Assembly: GCF_037963835.1 (NCBI RefSeq)
Contig: NZ_CP150145.1
Span: 3,472,001 to 3,536,000 of the forward strand
DNA from: Paenibacillus sp. FSL H8-0332
Lineage (GTDB): Bacteria > Bacillota > Bacilli > Paenibacillales > Paenibacillaceae
Direction: 5' to 3'
DNA length: 64,000 bases
In this document: piece by piece, positions 19,411 through 35,639 of the stretch
How positions within the stretch are numbered: the stretch's first letter is position 1
Layout of the letters: every line of letters starts with the position of its first letter
Notes under the pieces: model-generated
Seen by the model: the letters and a program-made list of their open reading frames with translations, nothing else
Databases searched by the model: none
What the model was told of the DNA's origin: nothing
Translations under genes and position numbers: made by a program

Positions 19411-19451
19411 GTTTTATTTAGCATAAATAATATTTGATGGAGGGACCCAGC

Positions 19452-21358: not shown

Positions 21359-21407
21359 GTTTTAAGGGACCCTTACTGGAAAATATGGAATTATCTTCAT
21401 CTTTAAC

Positions 21408-21452
21408 TTGATTAGCATTATTCTATCTGTTATATATGTAATATAACAGATA
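21408..21452 (+). promoter_or_regulatory. Sigma-A promoter with perfect GntR/YtrA-type operator over the -10 box
   Basis: TTGATT (21408-21413), 17 nt, TATATA (21431-21436). A perfect inverted repeat TATCTGTTATAT (21424-21435) and ATATAACAGATA (21441-21452), spaced by ATGTA, spans the -10 region and start site. The next gene is a YtrA-subfamily GntR regulator, so repression of its own operon is the simple reading. Confidence 0.82.
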
Positions 21453-21469
21453 AAGAAGGAGGGTTATTC

Positions 21470-21871
21470 GTGTTCATAGAGCTTGATCTGCAATCGGAAA
21501 CCCCCATTTACACTCAACTGGTTGACCAAATCGTTGAGGGGATCGCCTCTGGCAAGCTGAAGCCAGGCGATCCGCTTCCGTCGATCCGAAGCCTGGCGGA
21601 GGACCTCGGGATCAATCTCCATACCGTCAATAAAGCCTACAATTTGCTCAAGCAGGAAGGCTTACTTCAAGTGAACCGGAAGACGGGCGTTATTGTTCAG
21701 CCGGGCGGGATGCCCGGTGTGACAGAGGTGTTCGCGGAGAAGCTCCGGCGGCAGCTGCGGTCTCTTGCTGCTGCAGCTGCCGTACGAGGCATGGCGGAAG
21801 AGATATTCGCACAGGAGAGCAGATCGGTGTACCAGGATATAATCAGAATTCGCGGAGGGGAACAACATTGA
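21470..21871 (+). CDS. GntR-family regulator, YtrA subfamily
   Basis: 133 aa from GTG 21470, preceded by AGAAGGAGGG. The winged helix covers about 10-75 ('TPIYTQLVDQIVEGIASGKLKPGDPLPSIRSLAEDLGINLHTVNKAYNLLKQEGLL'), followed only by a short helical dimerisation tail, as in the small YtrA class that usually controls ABC or membrane-protein operons in response to cell-wall antibiotics. Its stop overlaps the TTG of the next gene (21868). It probably binds the palindrome at 21424-21452. No ligand domain is visible. Confidence 0.93.
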   Translation: MFIELDLQSETPIYTQLVDQIVEGIASGKLKPGDPLPSIRSLAEDLGINLHTVNKAYNLLKQEGLLQVNRKTGVIVQPGGMPGVTEVFAEKLRRQLRSLAAAAAVRGMAEEIFAQESRSVYQDIIRIRGGEQH

Positions 21872-22944
21872 CACAAGAACCGATGATTATTATTTTCGGA
21901 AGTTATTTGATGATTACTCTGATGCTCAGCTTACAGGTCTATCGCGGATTAAGGACATTTCTGTTCGGCATTGTTCTGCCGGAGGATGTTCTGAATGACC
22001 CGTCCATCCGTGCCATTCGCCGGAATTACGCTTTGCTTATCAGTGGTTTTGCGGTCGTCATCGGGTGGGCTTGCTTGTTATGGCTTCGCGATCAACCGGC
22101 CTGGGGTCTCCTGATTTTGACGACATCCATCTTGCTTTTAATGATTGCTTCATCCTTCGCGGTTTGGCTCAGCCGGATGTCCGTGCAACGCTTGAAGGCT
22201 GCCAGAGGCTGGCAGGTTGTCGTGCAGACGAAGCGCGCAGCAAGTCTGATGGTCAGCCGGACGCATAGTCCGGTGCTACGCACTTGGTGGTATTCGGCAA
22301 ATGCTGCCGTTATGGCGCTATGCATCTTCTTTGCTATTGCAAGGTGGGATACGATTCCGCAATTGTTGATTCTCGGAAATTTTCATTTCAACAAATCCGT
22401 GTGGACCGTGTTCATGCTGAACAGTGTGCAAGCGCTGAATATCACCGTGTTTGTCTGCTACAGTCTGCTGATCAGCCGTGCCAGAACTTCGCTTGATCCC
22501 CAGGACCGGGAAGGTTCGCTGCAAAAACAGCTGAAGCTAAAGAAAATCCATTCGCTTCTAGCTTGGGGAGCCTCGTTCCTAATGGTTGTATTCTATGGTG
22601 TGGCGCAAGCCATAGCGTTGTACGGCTGGAGCGGCAATCTGCTCGCCCTATCCGGCATGGCGCTCTGTACAACGCTCTTCGTGGCACTAATCTGCATCAT
22701 ATTTTACATACGGATCAAGGGTATTGATCAGCTAAAAGACGTTCCATCGCTGGAGGAAAGGCACTGGAAGTGGCTCGGCCTCATTTACATGAATCCTGAA
22801 GATCCGGCGTTGATGATACCAAACAATCATGGTTTCGGCTGGACGATCAATATGGCCAATCCGTGCAGTAAGATCATAGCCGCCGGGATCTTAGCCGTTC
22901 CGGTAATCGAAACTATACTTGTTTTTCCTTTATTCAATAAATGA
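21868..22944 (+). CDS. Multi-pass membrane protein with DUF5808-like C-terminal motif
   Basis: 358 aa from TTG 21868, which overlaps the regulator's stop. About seven to eight hydrophobic segments are visible, with basic loops between ('RRNYALLISGFAVVIGWACLLWL', 'LLILTTSILLLMIASSFAVWL' and others). Near the C-terminus 'HWKWLGLIYMNPEDPALMIPNNHGFGWTINMANP' matches the short DUF5808 pattern (W-x-G-x-x-Y-x-N-P-x-D-P ... G-x-G-x-T-x-N) often found in DUF1648-type membrane proteins beside YtrA regulators. No enzymatic motif. Likely part of an envelope-stress operon with the GntR regulator and the serine hydrolase. Confidence 0.8.
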   Translation: MTQEPMIIIFGSYLMITLMLSLQVYRGLRTFLFGIVLPEDVLNDPSIRAIRRNYALLISGFAVVIGWACLLWLRDQPAWGLLILTTSILLLMIASSFAVWLSRMSVQRLKAARGWQVVVQTKRAASLMVSRTHSPVLRTWWYSANAAVMALCIFFAIARWDTIPQLLILGNFHFNKSVWTVFMLNSVQALNITVFVCYSLLISRARTSLDPQDREGSLQKQLKLKKIHSLLAWGASFLMVVFYGVAQAIALYGWSGNLLALSGMALCTTLFVALICIIFYIRIKGIDQLKDVPSLEERHWKWLGLIYMNPEDPALMIPNNHGFGWTINMANPCSKIIAAGILAVPVIETILVFPLFNK

Positions 22945-22977
22945 AGAATTGAAGAATTATAGTGAAGGGGAGTTCAA

Positions 22978-25032
22978 ATGATAAGAAATCGTTGGATAAC
23001 TGTAGTTATGCTATTGTTGTGTCTGCTTCTGCTGTTAACCGCCTGTAACGACAACCCACCTGTGGAACTCACCCTGAAAGCTGCACAGGAGAAAGCAGCT
23101 CTCCTCACAAGTACTTACGACACGAACAGCGTGCAATACGCCCTTATCGATCATGGTCACATCACCGTATCCGGCCAATCCGGCAAGAATGATGAGCAGG
23201 GACAGAGGCCGCTCACGAAAGACACGATGTACGGGATCGGCTCAACCAGTAAAATGTTTACCACGGTTGCCGTTATGCAGCTGGTCGAGCAAGGTAAAAT
23301 CGGTCTTGATACGCCGGTCGTCCAGTATATTCCCGAGTTTACGATGAAGGATGAACGTTACAAGCAGATTACGCCGCGTATGCTGCTGAATCATTCCTCC
23401 GGTTTAATGGGATCCTCGTTTACTAACGTCTTTTTATTCAATGATAAGGATACTTACGCCTACGACACACTGCTGAAACAACTGGCTGATGAGACCTTAA
23501 AGGCGGATCCGGGTGCTTATTCAGTGTACTGCAATGACGGATTTACACTAGCCCAGAATGTGGTCGAGCGCGTCAGCGGCATGGACTTCACCTCTTATAT
23601 CCATCGATTTATCACGGAACCTCTAGGTATGGTTAATACGAAGACGCCGCTCGATTCTCTGGAGGAAGTGAAGATGGCGGGGCTCTATTATCCTACCTAT
23701 ACAGGACAACTTCCTAACGAGACGGTCAACGTGATCGGAACCGGAGGTATTTATTCCACAGCGGAGGATTTGGTTCGTTTCTCACAAGTTTTCACGGGGA
23801 AAAAGGAAGAGGTCTTGTCTGATAAATTGGCTACGGCCGCGGCACAAGACGAGTACAAGACGGCACTCTGGCCTGATGATGCGGACAACTCCATCGGATA
23901 CGGTCTCGGCTGGGACAGCATCGATCTGTATCCCTTCGGGGAATACGGAATGAAGGCACTGACCAAAGGCGGGGACACGGTTCTCTATCACGCGTCGCTC
24001 GTTGTGCTTCCCGAACAGGAGATGGCGGCAGCTGTCGTCTCTTCCGGCGGAAGCAGTACGTACGACCAGCTTCTGGCCAGCGAAATCCTGCTTCAGGCGC
24101 TGAAGGAGAAAGGGACAATTGCCGAATTCAAGCCTGAGAAATCTTACGGCGTGCCGGTAAAGGCTGATATGCCGGAGTCCATGTTGCAGTATGCGGGAAT
24201 CTACGGCGCGACTGGTACAACAATGAACATCAAAATATCCGCAGGCGGTGTCATGTCCGTCACATCGGAGCAGCCATCGGCTAATTCGAACCGGATCTTC
24301 AAATATTCGGCGGACGGCATGTTCCATAGTTCGGATGGAAAAGAGATGATCAGCTTTGTGACGGAGGAGAATGGACGCACTTACGGATGGATTCGCCAAT
24401 ACGCTTTGGTGCCGGGTCTTGGGCAGGTGGCTATATCCATGTACAACGCTGAGAAGCTCAAAACCCAATATCTTCCAGTGGAGACCCGGGAAGCATGGAT
24501 GCTGCGCGACGGCAAGAAATATTATTTACTGAATGAGAAGTATACATCGCTCGTTTATTTGATGTTGCCGCCCACCCAATTGAACGTGTCAAAACAATTG
24601 CCGGGGTACGTGTTGGATAAACGAATAACCGGCCCGAATACGGCTGTCTCCGAATTGCAAATTCCGGGATCGAACGGACGGGATCTCACAGATCTTACGT
24701 TTTTTACACAAGACGGTGTTGAGTACTTGAATCATGGTGGATTCGTCTTAGTGAACGAGGACAACTTGAAGCCATTAAACTATGCTAAGAAGTCAACCGT
24801 TACGATTCCGCCCAGCGGATACGCCAGGTGGTATACGATAAGCGACAAAGATGAGGGTAAAATGGTTAAGGTGAGCATATCCTCGAACGGCTCCTTCGCC
24901 GTTTATGATGACAAGGGGACATGCCTCTACTTCAGTGTCACCGGAGGCAAGGATCAGACCACGCTGCCCGCGGGAGGATCGATTGTTTTCGCCGGGGATG
25001 CCGGCACAAAGTTTGAGATTTCCGTGCAATAA
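22978..25032 (+). CDS. Beta-lactamase-fold serine hydrolase lipoprotein
   Basis: 684 aa. The signal peptide ends at the lipobox LTAC (Cys23). Residues about 35-375 form a class C/AmpC-like serine hydrolase: SxxK is Ser89-Thr-Ser-Lys92 ('GIGSTSKMFTTVAVMQ'), and YxN is in 'YSVYCNDGFTLA'. 'PRMLLNHSSGLMG' and 'YSTAEDLVRFSQVF' are typical of the family (esterase EstB, PBP4*-like proteins). The last 300 residues are a beta-rich region, unassigned. Such proteins act on cell-wall peptides or small esters; true beta-lactamase activity is uncommon. It is third in the GntR operon, with its own ribosome site (GAAGGGGAG). Confidence 0.88.
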   Translation: MIRNRWITVVMLLLCLLLLLTACNDNPPVELTLKAAQEKAALLTSTYDTNSVQYALIDHGHITVSGQSGKNDEQGQRPLTKDTMYGIGSTSKMFTTVAVMQLVEQGKIGLDTPVVQYIPEFTMKDERYKQITPRMLLNHSSGLMGSSFTNVFLFNDKDTYAYDTLLKQLADETLKADPGAYSVYCNDGFTLAQNVVERVSGMDFTSYIHRFITEPLGMVNTKTPLDSLEEVKMAGLYYPTYTGQLPNETVNVIGTGGIYSTAEDLVRFSQVFTGKKEEVLSDKLATAAAQDEYKTALWPDDADNSIGYGLGWDSIDLYPFGEYGMKALTKGGDTVLYHASLVVLPEQEMAAAVVSSGGSSTYDQLLASEILLQALKEKGTIAEFKPEKSYGVPVKADMPESMLQYAGIYGATGTTMNIKISAGGVMSVTSEQPSANSNRIFKYSADGMFHSSDGKEMISFVTEENGRTYGWIRQYALVPGLGQVAISMYNAEKLKTQYLPVETREAWMLRDGKKYYLLNEKYTSLVYLMLPPTQLNVSKQLPGYVLDKRITGPNTAVSELQIPGSNGRDLTDLTFFTQDGVEYLNHGGFVLVNEDNLKPLNYAKKSTVTIPPSGYARWYTISDKDEGKMVKVSISSNGSFAVYDDKGTCLYFSVTGGKDQTTLPAGGSIVFAGDAGTKFEISVQ

Positions 25033-25059
25033 CGTCGCTAATTGTACTAAACGTTCGTT

Positions 25060-25237
25060 TTATTTAGACGAGCTGCGTTTGGACAGTCCAGATAGAGGCG
25101 AGATGCAGCCGGGTTTGTGGTGGCAATTCGAACGTTATCTGAAACCGGAAGATCTCCTGTTCGGGGTTAGAATCCTGCCGCGTAAGATTAACGCCTTAAG
25201 TCGGAACACGGAAGCCTGTAAATATGTTTGCGGTTGA
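25060..25237 (+). pseudogene. Possible gene fragment without a start codon
   Basis: In one frame this stretch reads as coherent protein-like sequence ('FYLDELRLDSPDRGEMQPG', then 'WWQFERYLKPEDLLFG' and 'ILPRKINALSR') before a TGA at 25235-25237. There is no ribosome site or start codon at its beginning; the only in-frame opening lies inside the preceding hydrolase gene. I do not recognise the family. It could be the remnant of a deleted gene, or chance. It makes up part of the 680-bp space before the biosynthetic cluster. Confidence 0.3.
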
Positions 25238-25293
25238 GGGCAGCTTTTTTTGAGTGCATTGTGATAGGATGAAATGGAATAAAGTGGTTATTC

Positions 25294-25488
25294 ATGGCCA
25301 TGTCAATCTTGCTTGGTCTTCGCTTACTTATGGCCATTTCTTTAATCTGGCTGGCACCTTATTCCTTCTATATCTCCATTGCTTCCATTCCGAGCATTTG
25401 GAACGTATTTTTCCTGCTCCTAGTGGTTCAAACCGTAGCTAACCTTTCATTTTTCAGACGCAAAAAAAACGAGGGCCTTCCCAGTTAG
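25294..25488 (+). CDS. Small hydrophobic protein, hypothetical
   Basis: 64 aa if translated from ATG 25294: two hydrophobic segments ('ILLGLRLLMAISLIWLA' and 'SIWNVFFLLLVVQTVANL') followed by a basic, polar tail 'FFRRKKNEG', as in small membrane proteins with an inside-positive end. Its stop lies in the loop of a strong terminator, which supports a transcript ending there. There is no convincing ribosome site at the ATG, so the call is tentative. Confidence 0.35.
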   Translation: MAMSILLGLRLLMAISLIWLAPYSFYISIASIPSIWNVFFLLLVVQTVANLSFFRRKKNEGLPS

Positions 25489-25506
25489 AGGAAGGTCCTC
25501 GTTTTT
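25465..25506 (+). terminator. Intrinsic terminator, probably bidirectional
   Basis: CGAGGGCCTTCC (25470-25481) pairs with GGAAGGTCCTCG (25490-25501, one G-U). TTTTT follows, and an A-run precedes the stem, so it could work in both directions. It isolates the biosynthetic cluster downstream from readthrough. Confidence 0.88.
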
Positions 25507-25729
25507 AGTTGGCTGCCTCAAACCCGTTAAACCCGGCAGTTATTTACAAGCATCTTGGCAACCAGTTTATCCATAGTTAAATAAGTTAAATAAAATCCAC
25601 TGGAAACTATTATATGAAAGTTGTATATTAAATCCACATTCTTGAATTACTATATGATGTAATAAATAGTATTTATCTGCAAATCAATTAAATGGAGAGT
25701 ACAAATTATGAATGAAAAGAGGGTATAAG
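25507..25729 (+). promoter_or_regulatory. AT-rich leader before the biosynthetic cluster
   Basis: About 220 bp of strikingly AT-rich, non-coding sequence lies between the terminator and the first cluster gene. It must carry the cluster promoter. TTGAAT near 25652 with AT-rich -10-like hexamers 15-19 nt on is the best candidate, but none has ideal spacing. Just before the gene lies a possible 6-codon leader ORF (ATG 25708 to TAA). No clear operator repeat was seen. Confidence 0.4.
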
Positions 25730-26740
25730 ATGAGCAACTTAAAAATTTTACTGATGCAACACCCGATCATTACTTCATGGCAATGGCAGGCGAATTCGTT
25801 CGCCGTATTAGGCAATTATCCGGAAACAGAACCTTGGATGATGAATCACTTTATTCAGCTTCAGCTCACCTCTAATCCAGACTGGAGCAGCTATGTGGAT
25901 TTTTACCGGACGCCTACATTCGAATTCTGCCCCTGGCTGTTTCATCAGCATTTGAAGAGGGAAACGGTTCGTTATTTCAATGAGGATATTTGCTCCTTCT
26001 TCATAGACTGCATCAATCTGGACAATTACATTTACGCCGTATTCGATCATGCTTATTTTTTGCAGGGGCATGATCGGCTGCCGCATGATTTGTTTATCTA
26101 TGGGTATGATCAGGAGCGTCAAGTGTTCCATGCGGCTGATTTTACGTTTACGGGGAAATATTCGTTCGCGGAGGTTTCGTTCGAGCAGCTCAAGAAGGCG
26201 TACTATGCGATTGAAGGGAACGAGGATTGGCTGTTCTCCGGTAAAGGCGGCGTATCGTTAATCAGCTTCAATGACTCACTGGGCTATGATTTTAATATAT
26301 CGAATGTGGCGGCGCAGCTGGAGGGTTTTTTAACAGGGCATAACCACTTTGAGAAGAGCAGGGAAATGACTTACCGGACGAATCCTTGCGTATATGGACT
26401 GGAAATCTATTCGAAGCTAATCGAGAATCTTTTAAAGATTCAAGATAAGGAGGCGGAAGCGGATTACCGGCCGTTTCACGTGCTTTGCGATCATAAAGCG
26501 CTGATGCTCCGCCGAATTCCCTTCCTGGAGCAGAACGGATATTTGAAGCCGGGCACCCATGTTCTGGAAGGTTACGAGAGTATAGAAAATGATGCTCTGC
26601 TGTGCAGAAACTTGCTTATCAAATACATGAAGACAAACGAATCGTCAATTATCGACAAAATTATTACAATTATAAGAAAATATAGAAAGAAAGAAGCAGA
26701 GCAAATTGAAATCTTATTATCGAATCTGGTGATAAGCTAG
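25730..26740 (+). CDS. BtrH N-terminal-like / C39-like fold protein
   Basis: 336 aa from ATG 25730 (AAGAGGG at correct spacing; an ATG six codons upstream lacks one). The segment 'DNYIYAVFDHAYFLQGHDRLPHDLFIYGYDQERQVFHAADFTFTGKYSF' follows the pattern of the butirosin BtrH N-terminal domain and its C39-peptidase-like relatives (ordered His and 'YGYD', then 'D/F...'). BtrH transfers an acyl chain from carrier protein BtrI to an amino-sugar. The Cys expected near the N-terminus is not visible: the region reads 'ITSWQWQANSFAVLGNYPE'. It opens the cluster with an acyl carrier protein directly downstream. It may transfer or bind acyl-ACP; activity without the Cys is uncertain. The family call is from recall of sequence pattern. 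Confidence 0.65.
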   Translation: MSNLKILLMQHPIITSWQWQANSFAVLGNYPETEPWMMNHFIQLQLTSNPDWSSYVDFYRTPTFEFCPWLFHQHLKRETVRYFNEDICSFFIDCINLDNYIYAVFDHAYFLQGHDRLPHDLFIYGYDQERQVFHAADFTFTGKYSFAEVSFEQLKKAYYAIEGNEDWLFSGKGGVSLISFNDSLGYDFNISNVAAQLEGFLTGHNHFEKSREMTYRTNPCVYGLEIYSKLIENLLKIQDKEAEADYRPFHVLCDHKALMLRRIPFLEQNGYLKPGTHVLEGYESIENDALLCRNLLIKYMKTNESSIIDKIITIIRKYRKKEAEQIEILLSNLVIS

Positions 26741-26773
26741 TTATTAATTTATGAAAGGAGGGAGTGGTGAAGC

Positions 26774-27049
26774 ATGATTAAACAAGGTGTAACCCAGCAG
26801 ATTATTCAAATCATCGAGCAAAAAATATCGTCTTCCTCTGGATCTTCCTTTACGGATGTTACCATTACGGCAGACACACTGCTTCGCGATGTGTGGCTCA
26901 GGCTGGAATCCATTCAAGTCGTTGAATTTGTTGTGGAGCTGGAGACTTCCTACGAGCTTGCGCTGCCGGATGAACTCCTGGGCCAGATTGACAGAAGCTC
27001 AATGAAAGTATCTGATCTGGCCGCCATCATCGAAGGTGCAGTGGGGTAG
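26774..27049 (+). CDS. Acyl carrier protein 1
   Basis: 91 aa. The sequence 'LLRDVWLRLESIQVVEFVVELETSYEL' matches the helix II region of an acyl carrier protein. Ser46 in LES replaces the usual position in G-x-DS(L/I) and would carry 4'-phosphopantetheine; the Gly-Leu-Asp context is changed to Arg-Leu-Glu, so modification should be tested. The ribosome site GAAAGGAGGGAG is 10-12 nt before ATG 26774. It follows the BtrH-like gene on the same strand and abuts the opposite-strand deacetylase gene (stops 5 nt apart). Confidence 0.85.
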   Translation: MIKQGVTQQIIQIIEQKISSSSGSSFTDVTITADTLLRDVWLRLESIQVVEFVVELETSYELALPDELLGQIDRSSMKVSDLAAIIEGAVG

Positions 27050-27053
27050 CGGC

Positions 27054-27893
27054 TTATGTCCGGATCACGCTCAGCGGTAGCGGCTCATTGACATCCGCCG
27101 TGTAAACCTTAAAGAAATAATCGCTGCCCTCAGGAGCGTGGAGCTTTGATTGCGGAGCAACTCCTCTTGCATGCTTTACCATTTGCTTCAACATGCTGGT
27201 TTTGGATGACCAAAGCAGGCTTAATTGCGAGCTGTACTTCAAGGATGCGTTTATTTTAGCTTTCAAGTCCCAGTACTGCAGCTTGATCCTTTGTTCATGC
27301 AGTCCTGCGGCAAGCTCTGTTCTCCAGGTTTTATCTTGATTAAAGCATAGGTATGGCAGGTCTTCGTAGTACATCAGACGGATCTGCCCATCTGTACCGG
27401 CTCTAAGCCTGTACTGCTCGGTGGACTCCCGGACGAGACAGTGATCAATATGTCTTCCGATTCCAAGCGGTACAAAAACGCCCGCAAAATTTTCAAATAT
27501 GATTTGCTCTGAGAGTACGGAGACGATCTCTTCTATCACCTCATGTTCAGACCCCAACTCCGCCACGAACAGATTTTGCAGCTTGCTGTAGACAGGGCTG
27601 CCGTCTTTATTTTTCCGGTAAATGCATTCCAGCAGGTTCAGGTGAATCACAGCTGCACCGAGTGCTTCAGCAGCACGAATATCCTCTTGCCTGCGCACGT
27701 CCATCGTATCCATTCCCAGCCCGAATTTTTTGTGCAGAATTCTGGCAAGCATGGACAAATCCGTTCCCATCCCTGTAAAGACTGTAGCAATCGTAACCTG
27801 GTAATTATTTTGTATGAGCGCATGGATATAATCGCCGCAGGATAGGATAGCATCATCCAAATGGGCGGAAATAAATAAATAATGTTGTGTCAT
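27054..27893 (-). CDS. PIG-L/LmbE-family N-deacetylase
   Basis: 279 aa on the minus strand; ATG at 27893 follows GGGAGGTACCC. Zinc motif AHxDD is seen as 'SAHLDDAILSCG' (His11, Asp13, Asp14), with 'RRQEDIRAAEALGA' and a second His region 'GIGRHIDHCLVRES' as in GlcNAc-type deacetylases (LmbE, MshB, BtrD). It removes an N-acetyl group from an amino-sugar conjugate, giving a free amine. It is embedded in the cluster but convergent with ACP 1 and divergent from ACP 2, so it needs its own promoter in the 57-bp gap at 27894-27950. Confidence 0.92.
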   Translation of the reverse strand: MTQHYLFISAHLDDAILSCGDYIHALIQNNYQVTIATVFTGMGTDLSMLARILHKKFGLGMDTMDVRRQEDIRAAEALGAAVIHLNLLECIYRKNKDGSPVYSKLQNLFVAELGSEHEVIEEIVSVLSEQIIFENFAGVFVPLGIGRHIDHCLVRESTEQYRLRAGTDGQIRLMYYEDLPYLCFNQDKTWRTELAAGLHEQRIKLQYWDLKAKINASLKYSSQLSLLWSSKTSMLKQMVKHARGVAPQSKLHAPEGSDYFFKVYTADVNEPLPLSVIRT

Positions 27894-27950
27894 GGGTACC
27901 TCCCGAGTTTTTGATTACAATTATATTCCAGATAGAAAGGAAGAGTAGAT

Positions 27951-28199
27951 ATGTTTGAAACTATTACAGAAATTGTTATAAAAGTCAAAGAGGATGAAAG
28001 CTTCCGGAGCTCTCTTACACCAAAGAGCGATTTGATTAATGAGGTCGGCCTGGATTCACTGCAGATGATCAATTTCATTCTGGAGGTTGAGGACCATTTC
28101 GGCGTAGAGATTGTGTACGAGGATTTGGATTACAGCTACCTGCTGTCCGTTGAACGCTTCATCAATTTTCTGAACGGCATGGAGAAAAAAATTGGCTAG
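27951..28199 (+). CDS. Acyl carrier protein 2
   Basis: 82 aa, canonical: 'NEVGLDSLQMINFILEVEDHFGVEI' with phosphopantetheine Ser36 in GLDSL. The ribosome site GGAAGAG precedes ATG 27951. Its stop overlaps the TTG of the ATP-grasp gene by 8 nt, so carrier and ligase are made together, as with BtrI and BtrJ in butirosin synthesis. It is the likely carrier onto which the ATP-grasp enzyme loads an amino acid. Confidence 0.93.
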   Translation: MFETITEIVIKVKEDESFRSSLTPKSDLINEVGLDSLQMINFILEVEDHFGVEIVYEDLDYSYLLSVERFINFLNGMEKKIG

Positions 28200-29517
28200 A
28201 GCACTGGTTGCCGGAATCTTTGACGCGGAGTCCCACTGGAGAGATGAGAATCTGGCGCTGTTGCCCGCTGTTCGCGATAAAGAAAGAGAACGCATCGTCA
28301 TGGCGATGGATGAGCTTATGTTTCCGTTCTGCGGCAGCGGAGACGGGCTGTTAACCCGTTTTGCGATGGAGGATGCTCATAAGGCATATCTAACAAGCCT
28401 TGGTTTCTCCTTTGAGCATTTGGTCTGGAAAGAGCCGGAAGCTGTGCCTAATCTTTTTGAGGCTATGGCATCCGATCCTCAGCGTGATGAGCAGTACGGG
28501 GCATTTGACGTTTTGTCCCCTTTCTCCGTCGTACCTTATACCCACGAGGTCATCGCCAAATATGAGTATGAGACCGAACTGCCGGCGATAGACAAGGTAA
28601 AGCGGGTCAACTCGAAAATATACTCTACCCTGTTAACCTGTAAACTGCTTGGCAAAAGCTTTGGACAGCCGGTCTACTCGGCAGAGAAGTTATTGATTCT
28701 TGGGCATAGCCTGCTGGCGGAGCATGGATCAGTCCTTATTAAAGACCCGTTCGGAGTTTCCGGAAAAGGCAACATGCTGCTTAAGTCGCAGCCCAGCCTG
28801 GAACGAGTGGCGTCATATATCCGCAAGCAGGAAGGCGAAGGAAAAGCAACCGCTTTTGTAATCGAGCCTTTTATGGAGGTTGAGTACGATTTCTCCTGCC
28901 AGTTCAACATCATGAGGAACGGTTCGTTTCACCTTCTCGGCTTACAGAAAATGAAGAACAAGCAGTTTGCCTACTTGGGTTCCGAATCTATGGAGGAAGA
29001 GGAGTGCAGGGTGCTCGAAAGAGCAGGCTACTTCGATGTGATGATACAAGCTGCCAACGCTCTCTTTAAGGACGGATATTTTGGACCGGTATGCATCGAT
29101 TCCATGGTATTGAAAGACGGAACGCTGGTACCGATTGTTGAGATTAATGCACGAAAATCTATGGGATTCATTAATCAGCGTTTGGATGAGACGCTCCAGA
29201 CTAACGGGAAAAAGGGCTTTTTCACCTACGGATCGGTCGGCTTCGGAGAGCGGTTCGATTATGAATGGTGGCTTGACGAGCTAAAGAAGCATAACATTTT
29301 ATACCCGAACCGGAAAGGAAACGGAATTTTCCCGCTGTCTTCCGCAACGTTATTTGCAGGAGTACCCGGACCCGGGAAGTCCTTTTCCGCAAGCGGGAAT
29401 TTGTTCAAAGGCAGACTCTATATGACCATTATCGCTGATCACTTGCAAGAAAGGGAACGTTATTTGGAGCAGATGAGGTTCAGCTTTGAGTCGAAAGGAG
29501 GGAAATGGTATAGCTAA
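28192..29517 (+). CDS. ATP-grasp ligase (BtrJ-like), probable aminoacyl-carrier-protein synthetase
   Basis: 441 aa from TTG 28192 (GGAG 7 nt upstream). The ATP-grasp core covers about 145-330: 'GSVLIKDPFGVSGKGNMLL' (Lys and Gly-rich ATP loop), 'AFVIEPFMEVEYDFSCQFNI', and 'GYFGPVCIDSMVL...LVPIVEINARKSMGFIN' (metal-binding Glu and Asn). The overall layout resembles BtrJ, which attaches glutamate to the carrier BtrI via acyl phosphate. Coupled to ACP 2. Substrate not predictable: it could be Glu or another amino acid. The start of the glycosyltransferase gene overlaps its last codons. Confidence 0.85.
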   Translation: MARALVAGIFDAESHWRDENLALLPAVRDKERERIVMAMDELMFPFCGSGDGLLTRFAMEDAHKAYLTSLGFSFEHLVWKEPEAVPNLFEAMASDPQRDEQYGAFDVLSPFSVVPYTHEVIAKYEYETELPAIDKVKRVNSKIYSTLLTCKLLGKSFGQPVYSAEKLLILGHSLLAEHGSVLIKDPFGVSGKGNMLLKSQPSLERVASYIRKQEGEGKATAFVIEPFMEVEYDFSCQFNIMRNGSFHLLGLQKMKNKQFAYLGSESMEEEECRVLERAGYFDVMIQAANALFKDGYFGPVCIDSMVLKDGTLVPIVEINARKSMGFINQRLDETLQTNGKKGFFTYGSVGFGERFDYEWWLDELKKHNILYPNRKGNGIFPLSSATLFAGVPGPGKSFSASGNLFKGRLYMTIIADHLQERERYLEQMRFSFESKGGKWYS

Positions 29518-30625
29518 CGCAGCTATTAGACAGGTCACTCTGCTCGGCTCCGGCAACTCGTTAGGCGTTTATGTACCGGTCATGCAGCTGAGCCGCCAAC
29601 TGAACAGTCGAGGCATACCCACGGAAGTGTGCGTGCTGGAGGATCTGTACCTGGATCACATTAAACAAAGAGTGCCAGCCTACAAAAAAGCTTTTCATCA
29701 AAGCTTCACCGTAGCGAAAAAAGGGGCCGAGCTGGCCCGTGATATTTCCGATTGTCTGGATTCTATCAAGCTTCGGCAGCTCTTTGAAGGCTGGGAGCGG
29801 GAAGGCAAAACCCGATTTGTTACCGCCACCGGCTTCTGGCTTCCGATTATACAGCAGTATCAGCTTTTCACCGGCGGTCTCCGCCTTGAGGTGGATTGTC
29901 TCCATTTCGACGCCATTCACTCTCCTTCTTATTTGGTATACGAGGACATAAGTGATCCGTACAACCATATATGGTTCTATGACCCGGCGGGCAAGGGCAT
30001 GTCCTATCGGATTGCCATCACCGACGAGACTCCGGTACCGCTGCACATGAGGGAAGAACGGTATATTGCGCACGGAGGGGGATGGGGAATCGGGACCTAT
30101 CCGTCAGCCGTACAGGAGCTGCTTCAGGCGGGTAAACGGCTCAGTGTACTTGCCTATTACCGCGAGGATATCAAGCCCCACGAGCAAATTCATTATTTTA
30201 TGAATGATCCCGAATGGAGCCCCTGGGTAAAAAACGAAGACGGCTCCTTCCAATTCCCCCCGCTCGCTAGGATTGAGTACGGGCAAGCGCCAGAATACCG
30301 GAATCAGCAGACTTATCCGCCGCTATTCAATGTCATTCGGCATTCCGCTGCGATTATCAGCAAGCCGGGAGGTTATTCCTTGATGGAATCCTTGGCGGCC
30401 GCCACTCCTTTCGTCTTTCTTGAGCCGTTTGGAAGGCATGAGGCGAGCAACGCGGCCTACTGGATTAAGCAGGGCTTCGGGATATGGTATGAGGATTGGA
30501 AGGCCGAAGGCTATTCCATGGATTCGCTAATTCGCATGCATGAGAACCTCATGCTGGCAAGAAATCATTCGATTGATTATGGAGGTGTCCTTGATGCAGC
30601 CCAAAACAACCCAGAAATTCGATGA
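29486..30625 (+). CDS. GT-B glycosyltransferase-like protein (start uncertain)
   Basis: 379 aa from TTG 29486. The N-terminal 'VTLLGSGNSLGVYVPVMQLSRQLNSRGIPTEVCVLE' resembles the first Rossmann half of a GT-B enzyme, and 'SAAIISKPGGYSLMESLAAATPFVFLEPFGRHEASNAAYWIKQGFGIWY' is the donor-nucleotide site of the UDP-glycosyltransferase/MurG class. TTG 29486 has GAGG 7 nt upstream. The much stronger site AAAGGAGGGA (29494-29503) is followed in frame only by ATA at 29510, and the ATG there (29505) is out of frame. It overlaps the ATP-grasp stop and the radical SAM start. It would transfer a sugar, perhaps GlcNAc later deacetylated by the PIG-L enzyme. Confidence 0.8.
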   Translation: MSRKEGNGIANAAIRQVTLLGSGNSLGVYVPVMQLSRQLNSRGIPTEVCVLEDLYLDHIKQRVPAYKKAFHQSFTVAKKGAELARDISDCLDSIKLRQLFEGWEREGKTRFVTATGFWLPIIQQYQLFTGGLRLEVDCLHFDAIHSPSYLVYEDISDPYNHIWFYDPAGKGMSYRIAITDETPVPLHMREERYIAHGGGWGIGTYPSAVQELLQAGKRLSVLAYYREDIKPHEQIHYFMNDPEWSPWVKNEDGSFQFPPLARIEYGQAPEYRNQQTYPPLFNVIRHSAAIISKPGGYSLMESLAAATPFVFLEPFGRHEASNAAYWIKQGFGIWYEDWKAEGYSMDSLIRMHENLMLARNHSIDYGGVLDAAQNNPEIR

Positions 30626-31763
30626 GCAGGTGTTTAACGATCTTAAACGCACGATTATGAACATGTCGCGCGCAAGCCGCATGCGGGAGGCGGACAGCCG
30701 ATATGCGATGGACGTTCCGGAGGATATCGGGATTAAGCTGAACAACGGCTGTAATTTGCGCTGCAAGCATTGCTACGAATGGAACGAAGACGGCTTCCAC
30801 CGGGATATGGCCAGGGAGGACCAGAAGAAGGAAATTGATATTGCTCTTGTAGAGAAGCTGCTGGCGTTTACCCGGGAGAAGAAATCCAAGCTCTACCTAT
30901 GGGGCGGCGAGCCGCTCTATTACAGTCAATTTTCACTGCTGGCCGACCTGCTCGAACAGGATCAGCGCACGGTTACGATTTGCACGAACGCTATTTTGCT
31001 GGAGCAGCAGCTGGAGTCACTGCTCAAGATGGGTGAAGGGCTGGTTGTCCTTGCCAGCCTGGAAGGATTCGAAGCGGAGAATGATGCAATAAGGGGCAAA
31101 GGCACTTATAGGAAGGTCTTACAGGCGGTCCAGCTGTTGCTGGAGCTTCAGAGAAAGGGCATCTTTAAGGGCAAGGTCTCGATCAGCCTGACGATGAACG
31201 ATGCCATGATTCCAAAGCTGTTTTCCTTCATGAAGTATTTCGAGGATATGGGCGTCGATTCTGTCTATTTCGTCTATCCCTGGTATATTTCCTCCACATC
31301 CGCAGCGGAGATGGATGATGTGTACATGAAGGAGTTCAGCTGGCTGAATCCGGTAGAACCCGGAAGCTGTAGCTGGCACTCCTTTACCTACCGCATTTCA
31401 CCAGAGAACGTGGAGCCGCTGAAGGAAGAGGTCCGCCGGATAACGGAGCATACGTGGAGGAATCGGATACGGTTTATGCCGGCCTTGGAGCTTGATGAAA
31501 TCGGCGATTTCGTGAACGGGGCTCAGATGACAGGGATGAAGCGGAAGAAATGCCTCGCCATCTCCACCCGGATGGATGTGCTGCCCGGCGGGAATGTGAC
31601 GCCGTGCAAATTCTTTCCGGAGTTTGCTGTCGGTAACATAAGCGAAGCTCCCGTTAAAGAGATTTGGCACGGGGAGAATTACGGCAAGCACCGCGAGCGG
31701 TTATCCTGCGGATTGATGCCGGTCTGTTCCCGCTGCGGACTGCTATATCACTACGGACGGTAA
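30594..31763 (+). CDS. Radical SAM enzyme with SPASM domain
   Basis: 389 aa from ATG 30594 (GGAGGTG upstream), overlapping the glycosyltransferase by 32 nt. Cys53-x3-Cys57-x2-Cys60 ('GCNLRCKHC') binds the 4Fe-4S cluster that cleaves SAM, and 'KLYLWGGEPLYYS' is the GGE motif. The C-terminal SPASM region has 'RKKCLAIS', 'GGNVTPCKFF', 'VGNISEAPVKEIW' and 'LSCGLMPVCSRC', enough for auxiliary clusters. SPASM enzymes modify peptides or, as BtrN does with a shorter relative of this domain, oxidise sugar-like alcohols. No precursor-peptide gene is seen nearby, which favours a small-molecule or carrier-bound substrate. Confidence 0.92.
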   Translation: MQPKTTQKFDEQVFNDLKRTIMNMSRASRMREADSRYAMDVPEDIGIKLNNGCNLRCKHCYEWNEDGFHRDMAREDQKKEIDIALVEKLLAFTREKKSKLYLWGGEPLYYSQFSLLADLLEQDQRTVTICTNAILLEQQLESLLKMGEGLVVLASLEGFEAENDAIRGKGTYRKVLQAVQLLLELQRKGIFKGKVSISLTMNDAMIPKLFSFMKYFEDMGVDSVYFVYPWYISSTSAAEMDDVYMKEFSWLNPVEPGSCSWHSFTYRISPENVEPLKEEVRRITEHTWRNRIRFMPALELDEIGDFVNGAQMTGMKRKKCLAISTRMDVLPGGNVTPCKFFPEFAVGNISEAPVKEIWHGENYGKHRERLSCGLMPVCSRCGLLYHYGR

Positions 31764-31821
31764 ATCCAACTTATTAAAAATTATAGCAGCGCAAGCTGCT
31801 AAACCGTAGGGAGATGTAACT

Positions 31822-32793
31822 ATGAATACGACTTGGCCTCTGTCAGGAATTACCCTGGTATGCACCGAATGCAAGAGTGGTCTTTATGAGACGGACGACG
31901 GTTTGATCTGCAAGACCTGCGGCCTCGGATACGCCCGGGAAGAGGGGCTCGCGAGCATGTTAATCAACCGCCCTGTAGCGGAGAAGCTTGCCGAAGGCTC
32001 GGCGCAAAAGGAAGCGGTCATCGGCATGTTTGATTCTATTAACCGGTCGCTTGAGGAGAAAAGACTGTCCAGATTTTCCACCTTTATTAACTGGGGGTAT
32101 GCCCCAAAGAACGAACAACCTGGCAGTCTTCAAGGTATTAACCAAAGCAGTATCCGGCTGCTTCGCGAAATCATTGGCGGCCTGGATGTTTCAGGCAAGG
32201 ATATTCTGGAAATCGGCTGTGGACGGGGAGGCAACGTGAGCGAGCTGTGTAAAAGCTATGGGACCCGCAGCGTGGTCGGCATTGATCTGACACCGTCCAA
32301 TATTCAATTTTGCCAAAGAAACAACCGGTATGAGCAAGCTTACTATTGTATTGGCGATGCAGAGCAGCTGCCTGTTCAAACGGAAAGCTGCGACATGGTG
32401 CTGAACATCGAGTCCTCGCATTTGTACCCGCATATCGAGCTGTTTTTTGCGGAGACCTACCGTGTATTAAAGCCAGGCGGGTTATTTTTGTATGCGGATA
32501 TTATGAGTGCTTCCGACATGCCGCGCTATGAGGATCAGTGGAAAAGACTGGGGTTTCGCACCGCATTGATCCGGGACATTACCGGCAATGTGTTGCAATC
32601 GGGAGACGATGCGCTGGGCAGCCGCCTGCATGCGCTTGAGGGCTCCTTTGAAGGGGAAGACCGGGTATGGGAATGGCTGGAGGCGCCCGGCACGCAGAAT
32701 CATGCGGATATGGTCACAGGCAGAAGAGTATTCACAATTGTTCATCTGGTGAAAGATGCCTCCGGCACCAAAGGGGAGCCTAGCCATGATTGA
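31822..32793 (+). CDS. Class I SAM methyltransferase with N-terminal zinc ribbon (copy 1)
   Basis: 323 aa. The N-terminal four-Cys ribbon 'LVCTECKSGLYETDDGLICKTCGL' is Trm112-like. The Rossmann SAM site is 'GKDILEIGCGRGGNVSELCKSYG', then 'VGIDLT', 'GDAEQLPVQTESCDMVLNIESSHLYP' and 'VLKPGGLFLYADI', as in small-molecule O- or C-methyltransferases acting on lipids and polyketides. ATG 31822 follows GTAGGGAGATG. It is a tandem paralogue of the next gene. It should methylate the cluster's intermediate or product; position unknown. Confidence 0.92.
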   Translation: MNTTWPLSGITLVCTECKSGLYETDDGLICKTCGLGYAREEGLASMLINRPVAEKLAEGSAQKEAVIGMFDSINRSLEEKRLSRFSTFINWGYAPKNEQPGSLQGINQSSIRLLREIIGGLDVSGKDILEIGCGRGGNVSELCKSYGTRSVVGIDLTPSNIQFCQRNNRYEQAYYCIGDAEQLPVQTESCDMVLNIESSHLYPHIELFFAETYRVLKPGGLFLYADIMSASDMPRYEDQWKRLGFRTALIRDITGNVLQSGDDALGSRLHALEGSFEGEDRVWEWLEAPGTQNHADMVTGRRVFTIVHLVKDASGTKGEPSHD

Positions 32794-32806
32794 AGGAGAG
32801 GAAGCC

Positions 32807-33760
32807 GTGAGTAAGGCATGGCCATTAACAGACCTTAACTGGGTATGTCCGCGGTGCAAGCAAACGCTTGCGAAGATGGAGTTCTCATTAGACTGTACGT
32901 CATGCGCCGAAAGCTACCCTATGGCCGCTGGCTCGATTCCATGCCTGCTTGTAGAAAGTGATGCGCTGGAAACGATGGAGCATAAGGCGCAGAAGGAGGC
33001 GGTTAAAGAGATGTTTACGTCGTTTAACCGGGCTTTGGAGCAAACTGGCGTCTCACGCTTCTCCACGTTTATCAATTGGGGATATGCAGAGGCGGAAGAT
33101 GAGAAGGAGGCTGCAGGCAGCCTGCCGAGAGGGGTCAACCACCAATCGCTTCGGCTTCTGCAGGAAATCATGCACGGAGTCGATGTGCAGGGAAAAGACG
33201 TACTGGAAATCGCCTGCGGCAGAGGCGGCAACGTACGGGCACTCTGCAAAAGCTACGGACCGCGCACCGTCGCTGGCCTCGATTTGACGGAAGCGAATAT
33301 CGCCTTCTGTCTGGCAGGCAACCGGTATGAACAGGCTACGTTCTGCGTCGGGGATGCGGAGGAGCTTCCGCTTCCGGATGAATGCTGCGATATCGTGCTG
33401 AATATCGAATCCTCGGATCTCTATCCCCGGATCACCCGTTTTTATGATGAGGTATTCCGGGTGCTGAAGGCTGGAGGCTTGTTCGTATATGCGGATGATC
33501 TGGATGCGCTCAAGTTCGAGACAGGTGAGCGGTATTTACTTGAGCTGGGCTTTGAGATGTCGCTGGTACGCGATATTTCCGAGCATGCTTTGCTGGCAAG
33601 CGATTTGGCCAGAGGCAGCCGTCTGGCAGCGCTGGGCGATGCTCTCGGGAAGGAGGACGCCGTATGGGAGACCATGGGCGTTCCCGGAACCCCGATTTAC
33701 GATGATATGCACTCGGGAAAGCGAAGATACAAAATTCTTCACCTGAAAAAGAAGGTGTGA
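32807..33760 (+). CDS. Class I SAM methyltransferase with N-terminal zinc ribbon (copy 2)
   Basis: 317 aa from GTG 32807 (ribosome site GAAGGAGAGG). This start gives an N-terminus ('SKAWPLTDLNWVCPRCKQ') that lines up with copy 1 ('NTTWPLSGITLVCTECKS'). SAM motif 'GKDVLEIACGRGGNVRALCKSYG', then 'GDAEELPLPDECCDIVLNIESSDLYP'. The two are clearly a recent-looking duplication (long identical runs such as 'CGRGGNV' and 'VLNIESS') but differ at the C-terminal part that shapes the acceptor site, so two methylations or two acceptors are likely. Confidence 0.92.
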   Translation: MSKAWPLTDLNWVCPRCKQTLAKMEFSLDCTSCAESYPMAAGSIPCLLVESDALETMEHKAQKEAVKEMFTSFNRALEQTGVSRFSTFINWGYAEAEDEKEAAGSLPRGVNHQSLRLLQEIMHGVDVQGKDVLEIACGRGGNVRALCKSYGPRTVAGLDLTEANIAFCLAGNRYEQATFCVGDAEELPLPDECCDIVLNIESSDLYPRITRFYDEVFRVLKAGGLFVYADDLDALKFETGERYLLELGFEMSLVRDISEHALLASDLARGSRLAALGDALGKEDAVWETMGVPGTPIYDDMHSGKRRYKILHLKKKV

Positions 33761-33764
33761 AGCA

Positions 33765-34712
33765 ATGACGGCTCCCTTTTTGACTATTACTGATTCTAGT
33801 GTATATATTCCTTCATTCCGGGCTCCAGTCGATCAGGTCATCCAGGAAATAAACGACGATGGCGTTTCTTTCCGCTTAAGCGCAGCGGAGTACAGAGACA
33901 GCGGCTTTGGGTATGTCCCCATCGAGCAGAGTCAAAGTCTGGAGCAAATGATATATAAGGTATGCGCCCCCATTCTAAGGCGGATAAGACGAGATGGCAT
34001 ACCGCTCTCGGCTATTCTCTTCGCATCTGTCACGAGCGCCGGAGTGCAAGCACAGGGCTTGTTCTCCAGGCTGCTCCGCGAGTTTGACTATGGTACAACG
34101 CCGGTTATTCAGCTGGAGGAATACGGCTGCTCCACCATTCACTTGTCGCTTTATTTAACGAAGGCTTATTTCGCCGGTGAAGGCCAAAGCGACGATGCTG
34201 TATTGTTTGTTGCGGCAGATCAAGCGAACATTTCGCATCACCGCAGCGATTCCTATATGCTTTACGGGGATGCGGCAAGCGCTGCTCTATATCGTAAATC
34301 TGCAGCCCGAGGGCAGCAGACTCTATCTGCTAGGCTTAAAGTGGATGGGTTCGTTTACGATCATAGTCCTGAACGAGTCAAAATGTACTTTTCAACCTTT
34401 TATTTAGCTGTCCGGCAGGTTGTAAATCAGGTTTTACGCGAATCGGGAATGGATATGAACAAGATAAGCCATATTTTTTGCTCAAATCTGGGACTGCGCA
34501 CCTGGAGTACTCTTGCCCGGGCGCTGGGCTGCCCATTAGACAAATTTTATGCCTCCACGCTTGAAGATGCGGGGCATCTTCATAATACGGATATTCTGCT
34601 TAACGTAAATGAGGCGGTCAGGACCGGCTCTTTGAATAGGGGAGACTTCTATTTGGCGGTATCCATAGGCTTTGGAGGCTACTACGGCTGTTCCTTGCAC
34701 AAATACGAGTAA
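33765..34712 (+). CDS. KAS III (FabH)-like thiolase-fold enzyme, divergent
   Basis: 315 aa. The fold of beta-ketoacyl-ACP synthase III is recognisable: Cys122 in 'LEEYGCSTIHLSLYL', 'VLFVAADQANISHHRSDSYMLYGDAASAALY' (FabH LFGDGAGA region) and C-terminal 'VSIGFGGYYGCSLH'. The usual His of HQAN appears lost ('IFCSNLGLRTWST') and the Asn loop reads 'DAGHLHNTDI', whose His and Asp recall the Cys-His-Asp acyltransferases of the CerJ/DpsC type. It may condense the carrier-bound aminoacyl unit with a malonyl unit, or transfer an acyl group. It sits 5 nt after copy 2 of the methyltransferase. Confidence 0.82.
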   Translation: MTAPFLTITDSSVYIPSFRAPVDQVIQEINDDGVSFRLSAAEYRDSGFGYVPIEQSQSLEQMIYKVCAPILRRIRRDGIPLSAILFASVTSAGVQAQGLFSRLLREFDYGTTPVIQLEEYGCSTIHLSLYLTKAYFAGEGQSDDAVLFVAADQANISHHRSDSYMLYGDAASAALYRKSAARGQQTLSARLKVDGFVYDHSPERVKMYFSTFYLAVRQVVNQVLRESGMDMNKISHIFCSNLGLRTWSTLARALGCPLDKFYASTLEDAGHLHNTDILLNVNEAVRTGSLNRGDFYLAVSIGFGGYYGCSLHKYE

Positions 34713-34725
34713 CACGGGTAAGGCG

Positions 34726-35139
34726 GTGAGCACGATAAAGACAGAACTAAAGGTTAAAATTCTTTATTCGGGCAGTAGGACGGAGGATCAAAATCAATCA
34801 TTGGCAGACATAGCCATAGCTCAAATGGAAGCGAACAGGCATTGGCTCATGGACATGGATGTGCTGGTCCTTTGCCATCATGTGAATACCTCCCATGCTG
34901 AGCATGTTTGTGCAAAAATAAGAAGAGAGCTTAATCTAATGGACGTGCTGCCTCTGGCACTCGGTCATTCCGGAAGCCTTGCGTTTCCTCATGCGCTTTC
35001 ACTGCTGGAATGGCTGATGGCAGGCGGCACCTATCGCAAGGCGGTATGCGTTCTGGCGGATGATCACTTTGACCAGAGCAGTGTGATGTTGCCGGCTCAA
35101 ACGGCCCCATTGTCCATCATTGAGATAATGCCGCAATGA
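34726..35139 (+). CDS. Half-size, Cys-less thiolase-fold protein (possible KAS III partner)
   Basis: 137 aa from GTG 34726, 13 nt after the KAS III-like gene. The stretch 'MDVLVLCHHVNTSHAEHVCAKIRRELNLMDVLPLALGHSGSLAFPHALSLLEWLMAGGTYRKAVCVLADD' follows the N-terminal half of a KAS III, but the active-site Cys position falls in GHSGS, with no Cys, and the C-terminal half is missing. The protein ends cleanly without a frameshift. It may be a structural partner of the preceding enzyme, comparable in idea to a chain-length factor. Family call is by pattern; moderate certainty. Confidence 0.55.
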   Translation: MSTIKTELKVKILYSGSRTEDQNQSLADIAIAQMEANRHWLMDMDVLVLCHHVNTSHAEHVCAKIRRELNLMDVLPLALGHSGSLAFPHALSLLEWLMAGGTYRKAVCVLADDHFDQSSVMLPAQTAPLSIIEIMPQ

Positions 35140-35207
35140 ACTACTATTTGACGGGCATTGGACACGCTCCATATAATGAAGAGACGAGAGTGACAGGGGG
35201 GCATCGA

Positions 35208-35639
35208 ATGGGAGCATGGGGAGTCAAAGCATTGGAAAGTGATGAAGGGCTGGATCTGGTGGCAGCGATCGAGGACTTGCTTCCTCGTGACACATTGGAT
35301 TTGGGTGAGTTGATGGCGAAGTTTGGTGAGGATGACTTCCTTTATGACGGAACAGTACTCGCCCTCGCGGAGCTGTATATCGAGTTTCAAGAGAATGGCA
35401 GTTTGGATTACGATCATGAGGAGGAAGAACGCGCCTTAACGCAAGTACGGGCGTTCACGGCCGATCATTCCGCGCTGAAGGCTTTGCTCGAGCATTTGAA
35501 CGTGATTTGGACTGACATTGAGGGGGAGTGCGAGGGCGATTTGGCGGAACTGTGGCGGGAATCGTCAAGCTGGGACGAATGGCGGACACATGTACAGCAG
35601 CTCATTTCCAAGTTGGAAGCGCGGCTTGCCAAAGATTAG
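35208..35639 (+). CDS. DUF4259-domain protein
   Basis: 143 aa from ATG 35208 ('MGAWGVKALESDEGLDLV'), the standard start of DUF4259 proteins, preceded by ACAGGGGGG; the frame is open 24 codons further upstream. Acidic and helical, with no signal peptide. DUF4259 proteins have no assigned function, though they are often found near toxin-immunity or defence genes. A terminator follows. Connection to the biosynthetic cluster upstream is doubtful: it is 68 nt from the last cluster gene. Confidence 0.85.
   Translation: MGAWGVKALESDEGLDLVAAIEDLLPRDTLDLGELMAKFGEDDFLYDGTVLALAELYIEFQENGSLDYDHEEEERALTQVRAFTADHSALKALLEHLNVIWTDIEGECEGDLAELWRESSSWDEWRTHVQQLISKLEARLAKD

Follow-up and report, generated by a model that had tools for sequence, protein, structure and literature searches.

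The chromosome of Paenibacillus sp. FSL H8-0332 (7.54 Mb) contains a group of genes whose predicted products recall those of butirosin biosynthesis, and the question raised by this locus is what such a set of enzymes may serve to make where the genes for an aminoglycoside core are not among them. The stretch of DNA analysed here (the window; 64,000 nucleotides, chromosome positions 3472001-3536000) comes from a strain near P. tritici, with which its ATP-grasp ligase shares 97% of amino acids, and the genes in question are designated A to K (Table 1). Results of our analysis indicate that they belong to a family of clusters that share a core of genes encoding an acyl carrier protein (ACP; gene D), an ATP-grasp ligase (E), a glycosyltransferase (F) and a radical S-adenosylmethionine (SAM) enzyme (G). 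In our estimate, there is about an even chance that the cluster encodes a carrier-protein-templated pathway to a modified amino sugar bearing an acyl, probably aminoacyl, group. An earlier reading of the same DNA (the original prediction), which saw in it a biosynthetic cluster with butirosin-like carrier-protein parts but no aminoglycoside core, is partly supported.

Conservation of the cluster core

A GTDB-based scan with the ATP-grasp profile gave 150 confirmed relatives, and the best 80 loci, which were taken for comparison, are mainly those of Paenibacillus; others come from Cohnella and Clostridium and from metagenome bins classified as Methylococcaceae, Methylumidiphilus, and Nostoc. 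Clustering of the open reading frames (ORFs) of 96 loci, a set that includes the window and in which some genome regions appear twice, from different collections, grouped the ATP-grasp gene in 94 loci, the glycosyltransferase gene in 91, and the radical SAM gene in 81. Three genes for an ABC-2 exporter occur in 60-70 of the loci and the gene of the core carrier protein in 65, and 53 loci have an A-type BtrH-like gene. In the gene maps of dozens of loci, the order ACP, ATP-grasp ligase, glycosyltransferase, radical SAM enzyme, exporter recurs. The three-gene core is complete in 69 loci, and in 48 of these the ACP gene is immediately upstream of the ATP-grasp gene.

The choice of loci by their ATP-grasp gene biases these counts, and the co-occurrence was therefore re-tested starting from the glycosyltransferase. 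The glycosyltransferase family is present in 148 of the 396 genomes of the same bacterial family, and 101 of the 108 strongest matches checked have an ATP-grasp gene within 3 kb, which is well beyond chance. Among the matches with no ATP-grasp gene nearby, one is at a contig end and one is a locus of the source genome itself (L031). The pairwise distances of E, F, and G in 60 loci are correlated with each other (Mantel r 0.84-0.95, with no permutation above 0.12), most closely those of glycosyltransferase and ATP-grasp ligase (r 0.947); the three genes are co-inherited. Thus, the co-occurrence of the genes, the lack of which would have refuted the original prediction, is conserved, and the gene order is preserved across many genomes.

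The source genome contains four clusters of the family, with glycosyltransferase matches at 0.44, 2.11, 3.50, and 4.80 Mb, each beside a relative of the radical SAM gene. The locus L031 (431000-450000 of the same genome) retains the ACP, the glycosyltransferase, two radical SAM genes and the exporter, and has no ATP-grasp gene; an AMP-ligase gene and a second ACP gene are located upstream. In the metagenome bins of Methylococcaceae, Nostoc, and Methylumidiphilus (L103, L105, and L112), the core genes have different neighbours, suggesting a transfer across phyla, with bin contamination as the alternative. A description of the combination of ACP, ATP-grasp ligase, glycosyltransferase, and radical SAM enzyme was not found in open-licence literature, which is weak evidence of novelty.

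Gene content and integrity

The comparison with P. tritici reveals a single homologous block of 97.7% identity (window 25598-35137), which ends where the last cluster gene does. Because the homology stops at these two positions, the boundaries of the cluster can be regarded as real. The ratios of nonsynonymous to synonymous substitution rates (dN/dS) relative to Paenibacillus caui are between 0.07 and 0.33 for the nine genes tested, including A and K, which shows that the cluster is intact and under purifying selection.

Genes were identified by ORF calling and by Pfam and NCBIfam scans of the cluster ORFs and flanking genes; all gene classes named in the original prediction were recovered, intact and close to where it had placed them. 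The start of K was chosen by its P. tritici homologue, although the ORF has an earlier start at 34672. The same Pfam and NCBIfam scans identified no condensation, adenylation, or modular ketosynthase domains of nonribosomal peptide synthetases or polyketide synthases (NRPS/PKS) in the cluster. No RNA element was matched in an Rfam scan, promoter and terminator scans gave signals near chance level, and the plasmid collection searched contained no match to the cluster.

Table 1. Genes and other features of the cluster, with positions in the window
Feature	Position	Strand	Basis of assignment
A: BtrH/CcbD-fold protein, member of carrier-protein-dependent acyl/amide transferase family	25712..26740	+	predicted fold, hhalign
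B: acyl carrier protein 1	26774..27049	+	NCBIfam ACP models 5e-9; PF00550 below cut-off
C: PIG-L family N-deacetylase, BtrD-like	27054..27893	-	PF02585 2e-14
D: acyl carrier protein 2, core	27951..28199	+	PF00550 7e-7, above cut-off
E: ATP-grasp ligase, sister branch of BtrJ, core	28192..29517	+	profile, hhalign, tree
F: GT-B glycosyltransferase, MurG/UgtP-like, core	29486..30625	+	AlphaFold2 fold, sequence profile
G: radical SAM enzyme, BtrN-type twitch auxiliary cluster, core	30540..31763	+	PF04055 1e-18, PF13186 1e-12
Deletion scar (three ABC exporter genes in sister clusters)	31764..31821	.	comparison with P. caui
H: SAM methyltransferase 1	31822..32793	+	PF08241 5.7e-20
I: SAM methyltransferase 2, paralogue of H	32756..33760	+	PF08241 5.4e-17; same NCBIfam profile as H
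J: KAS III-like acyltransferase, Cys122-His271-Asp276	33765..34712	+	PF08541 4.6e-12
K: half-length, Cys-less KAS III-like partner of J	34726..35139	+	hhalign 94.9% to N-terminal half of J family

The deletion scar marks a difference from sister clusters. In P. caui, as in others of its subfamily, the radical SAM gene is followed by three ABC transporter genes, of the PF06182 ABC-2 type, and these by the methyltransferase gene. In P. caui, a 2.6 kb segment with these genes (abcABC) separates the 3' flank of the radical SAM gene (window to 31774) from the 5' flank of the first methyltransferase gene (window from 31773), while the window and P. tritici share a clean junction at 31773/31774, from which the exporter genes are gone. 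Since outgroup members have the exporter, its loss from the window copy is the simpler reading.

Relation to the butirosin system

For comparison, we used a locus in a genome (G388) with a protein that has 73% identity to part of BtrN, an enzyme of the butirosin pathway. We take this locus to be butirosin-type from the BtrN identity and from the gene order known from the literature. The resemblance to butirosin proposed in the original prediction holds for the homologues of BtrJ, BtrI, BtrD, and BtrN and for the general logic of carrier proteins combined with a glycosyltransferase and a deacetylase. The two systems share a free ACP with an ATP-grasp ligase, a PIG-L deacetylase, a twitch radical SAM enzyme, and a member of the papain-like BtrH superfamily. 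The deacetylase C is assigned to the PIG-L family by its PF02585 score (54.7 bits vs. the cut-off of 28.2) and matches the BtrD-like protein of the butirosin-type locus with an E-value of 5.5e-17. Both carrier proteins that had been predicted were found. D has the motif GLDSLQ, while B scores below the Pfam cut-off (PF00550, 15.7 bits vs. 20.8), although its aligned phosphopantetheine-site serine (Ser46) is invariant.

The profile of E matches the BtrJ-like ligase of the butirosin-type locus (E-value 4.7e-25), and the hhalign comparison of the two (98.6%, 339 columns) includes the N-terminal region beyond the ATP-grasp core. The anticipated homology to BtrJ thus extends over the full length of E. 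In the phylogenetic tree, however, a BtrJ clade of 13 members is set apart from 79 glycosyltransferase-associated enzymes by a split with the support of 1.0, which on sequence grounds places E in a sister branch of BtrJ, outside the BtrJ clade. Nine sister clusters contain ATP-grasp enzymes of both kinds, that of the BtrJ type with its own BtrI-like ACP or BtrK-like decarboxylase. In these clusters (L081, L094, L102, L104, L108, L109, L110, L118, and L122), the core is accompanied by the BtrJ-type enzyme with the BtrI-like ACP, the BtrK-like decarboxylase and/or a BtrH_N protein. As the two kinds form separate clades and coexist in nine clusters, the function of the core ATP-grasp enzyme seems to differ from the loading of a butirosin-like side chain.

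The radical SAM enzyme G is related to BtrN (3e-12) and to BtrN of the butirosin-type locus (1e-10; 5.5e-17 with a profile). The cysteines of its CX3CX2C motif (C71, C75, and C78) are invariant, and so are its auxiliary cysteines C338-X17-C356 and C396-X2-C399, which align with those of BtrN with identical spacing. The auxiliary domain of the expected SPASM enzyme is therefore present, but with the four-cysteine BtrN/twitch pattern rather than with the full SPASM set, and by its motifs G can be classified as a putative BtrN-like twitch radical SAM enzyme. The methyltransferases H and I resemble Mtf2 and phthiotriol O-methyltransferases, below the NCBIfam cut-off.

The differences from butirosin are no less evident. 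Neither 2-deoxy-scyllo-inosose synthase nor aminotransferase genes were identified among the cluster and flanking ORFs scanned, to which the search for them was confined, in agreement with the predicted lack of an aminoglycoside core, and no pyridoxal phosphate-dependent decarboxylase of BtrK type is encoded in the cluster. The glycosyltransferase is of another family, the BtrH-like protein is devoid of cysteine at the catalytic position, and a KAS III-like acyltransferase is added, as are two methyltransferases. The tree of ATP-grasp enzymes and our reading of the btr-type locus led us to reject the identification of the cluster as a butirosin cluster.

A cysteine-free protein of the CcbD/BtrH/CtaG fold

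The model of protein A obtained with AlphaFold2 (confidence, pLDDT, 86) has a papain-like fold with a C-terminal helical domain. Its best matches in the PDB are CcbD (Z 17.5, 296 aligned residues, 4.0 A) and CtaG (Z 16). The predicted BtrH fold agrees with these matches and with the hhalign comparison of A with Cys-bearing BtrH-like proteins (98.5%), but not with Pfam or NCBIfam, in which A has no direct BtrH match. Likewise, A gave no significant match when compared directly with BtrH by itself; the match to the wider BtrH-like profile was significant.

The column of the catalytic cysteine was placed in A with the help of the fold-match ranges and of two relatives that retain this residue. 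In A, it is occupied by Gln24, and cysteine is found in it in 2 of 45 relatives, whereas His125 is invariant in all 45. Its sequence and modelled structure identify A as a probable conserved, cysteine-free member of the CcbD/BtrH/CtaG fold, and the BtrH-type transferase of the original prediction thus lacks its catalytic cysteine.

CcbD couples an amino acid, bound to a carrier, with an amino sugar in a ping-pong mechanism with a Cys-His-Glu triad (PMC12945683), and the lincosamide pathway includes also a glycosyltransferase and a mycothiol-type (MshB/Mca) amidase (PMC4351081, PMC12945683). The lincosamide synthetase system (CcbD/LmbD, carrier protein, LmbE/CcbE amidase, and LmbT) is as close a functional parallel as butirosin: a carrier-bound acid is joined to an aminosugar by an enzyme of the fold of A, and a PIG-L-type amidase, a carrier protein, and a glycosyltransferase are encoded in both cases. 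In contrast, the acid is activated by an adenylation domain there and by an ATP-grasp enzyme here, the Paenibacillus cluster has a radical SAM step, A lacks the cysteine of the triad, and no thiol or octose genes were recognised in the cluster. CtaG of the closthioamide pathway, a cysteine-protease-like, carrier-dependent condensing enzyme, shares the fold of A but keeps its cysteine (C11 in the titles of PDB entries), and no other cta-like genes were recognised in the cluster.

Glycosyltransferase and KAS III-like proteins

The AlphaFold2 model of F (pLDDT 86) is most similar to the MurG:UDP-N-acetylglucosamine (UDP-GlcNAc) complex (Z 19.8), effectively level with several UDP-glycosyltransferases (UGTs), while its first match in the sequence profile search is a processive diacylglycerol glucosyltransferase (1.9e-7). 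The relation to BtrM assumed in the original prediction was not detectable, and F as a BtrM homologue was rejected. The donor of F in this subfamily is probably UDP-GlcNAc, since the deacetylase C is present in subfamily members. Sister clusters contain genes for a glucose-1-phosphate cytidylyltransferase and a beta-N-acetylhexosaminidase (both above cut-off), as well as for a nucleotide-sugar dehydrogenase, a 4,6-dehydratase, and Gfo/Idh/MocA dehydrogenases. The presence of such nucleotide-sugar genes supports a product that contains a sugar and a sugar that varies among clusters.

Of the predicted KAS III-like pair, both genes are present, but the second encodes a half-length protein with no active-site cysteine, and the first has the triad of an acyltransferase. 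Residues C122, H271, and D276 of J are invariant in the subfamily. In the alignment of J with FabH, the catalytic histidine of FabH corresponds to Ser240 and its catalytic asparagine to His271, and Asp276 follows His271 by five residues. The Cys-His-Asp triad, with the same spacing, is that of ChlB3, which shifts acyl groups between carriers, and of CerJ, which acylates a sugar hydroxyl (PMC9573744). J differs from them in that its best sequence match is FabH (ChlB3 is matched weakly, 4.5e-5) and that its gene is adjoined by that of K. Since J has other residues at the histidine and asparagine positions of FabH and possesses the triad of CerJ/ChlB3, it is, as judged from sequence, more likely an acyltransferase than a chain-elongating enzyme, and the interpretation of the pair as a chain-elongating synthase is disfavoured. 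K is conserved in the subfamily (dN/dS 0.27).

Flanking regions

The DUF4259 gene downstream of K (35136-35639) was considered as a cluster member and rejected, as in P. tritici 3.7 kb of other DNA is located between and the gene is absent from sister clusters. This segment of about 3.7 kb downstream of the P. tritici cluster is missing from the window. Upstream, about 4.2 kb of the window (21386-25598, with GntR, DUF5808, and beta-lactamase-like genes) is absent from P. tritici at the corresponding place (L044). Some 4 kb before the cluster starts (19434-21317), the window encodes a short alanyl-tRNA synthetase of 627 aa (above the NF002436 cut-off) in addition to the ordinary one, which is at 1520465 of the same genome. 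The short copy might be a candidate for a resistance enzyme, but nothing ties it to the cluster. Downstream of the window (L043, chromosome 3554000-3573000), there is a different carrier-protein cluster, with genes for a DUF6005/BtrH-like protein, an AMP-ligase, an ACP, a BtrJ-type ATP-grasp enzyme, and a BtrK-type decarboxylase.

Proposed pathway and its alternatives

In the pathway that we propose, E would charge D with a carboxylic acid, most likely an amino acid, at the expense of ATP, in a BtrJ/BtrI-like logic. F would transfer a sugar, for which UDP-GlcNAc is the probable nucleotide-sugar donor, and C would strip the N-acetyl group, leaving a free amine. G, with its BtrN-type electron-accepting auxiliary cluster, may oxidise a hydroxyl of the sugar or of the acceptor, and H and I may methylate hydroxyls. 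A second acyl group would be supplied by B and passed by J to a sugar hydroxyl or between carriers, with K as a putative non-catalytic partner of J. A would unite the carrier-bound acyl group with the amine. We infer in this scheme the substrates, the order of steps, the identity of the acid as an amino acid, the function of A in the absence of cysteine, and the secretion of the product.

The pathway to an acylated amino sugar is backed by the conserved order of the core, the adjacency of its genes, their correlated distances, and the purifying selection, by the homology of E, C, and G to BtrJ, BtrD, and BtrN together with the CcbD fold of A and the CerJ/ChlB3 triad of J, and by the nucleotide-sugar genes that sister clusters add. 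Several observations weigh against it. A is devoid of the cysteine needed for the ping-pong mechanism of CcbD, and its role in amide formation is uncertain. The modelled GT-B fold of F, in which MurG is level with many UGTs, does not tell the donor or the acceptor, neither of which can be read from sequence, as the cluster has no gene for making unusual sugars or amino acids. Some sister clusters, of the L031 type, have no ATP-grasp enzyme at all.

In a tentative alternative, the core chemistry takes place on the carrier: the acyl group that E places on D would itself be the acceptor of F, G would oxidise the carrier-bound glycoside, and the cysteine-less A would only release the finished unit or hand it over. 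D, F, and G remain together in L031, the glycosyltransferase and the ATP-grasp ligase are the most tightly co-inherited pair, and F tracks the E-type branch of ATP-grasp enzymes and not the BtrJ-like branch, even in clusters that have both. However, a shared free intermediate would give equally tight co-inheritance, and the binding of carriers by F and G is conjecture. Just as tentatively, the family may be imagined as a widespread metabolite class in which an acyl group is glycosylated and radically oxidised on a free carrier, the final transfer being performed by the cysteine-free CcbD/BtrH-fold protein by a direct His-assisted attack instead of a ping-pong mechanism.

The affinities of F, which is nearest to diacylglycerol glucosyltransferases by sequence and to MurG by fold, point also to a modification of cell envelope or exopolysaccharide. 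F would then glycosylate a component of the wall or a lipid carrier, the ATP-grasp enzyme and carriers would decorate it (cf. D-alanylation of the DltC type), and the ABC-2 genes of sister clusters would export the polymer. The PF06182 assignment of the exporter and the weak match of D to DltC models of NCBIfam are in line with this, but we consider it unlikely: the relatives BtrJ, BtrD, BtrN, CcbD, and CerJ are enzymes of secondary metabolism, the sporadic distribution of the family and the divergence of its copies, of which a genome may have as many as four, suit specialised metabolites better, and no polymerase or lipid-linked sugar transferase is encoded in the cluster. It is highly improbable that the cluster is a true butirosin-type side-chain module with the aminocyclitol genes elsewhere in the genome: the homologues of BtrI, BtrJ, BtrD, and BtrN and a BtrH superfamily member would fit it, but E is outside the BtrJ clade, a BtrK-type decarboxylase is missing from the cluster, A has no significant direct match to BtrH, and the butirosin-type genome G388 keeps its own member of the family 2.7 Mb from the btr locus.

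Under the preferred reading of a carrier-protein-templated pathway to an acylated amino sugar, the core of ACP, ATP-grasp ligase, glycosyltransferase, and radical SAM enzyme marks a pathway family that is present in more than one third of the sampled genomes of the bacterial family and in which tailoring and nucleotide-sugar genes vary. Generic rules for cluster detection may overlook it, as the activation is by an ATP-grasp enzyme and not by an NRPS/PKS module. The family provides a comparison set for the carrier-protein chemistry of sugars and a test of whether the CcbD/BtrH fold works without cysteine.

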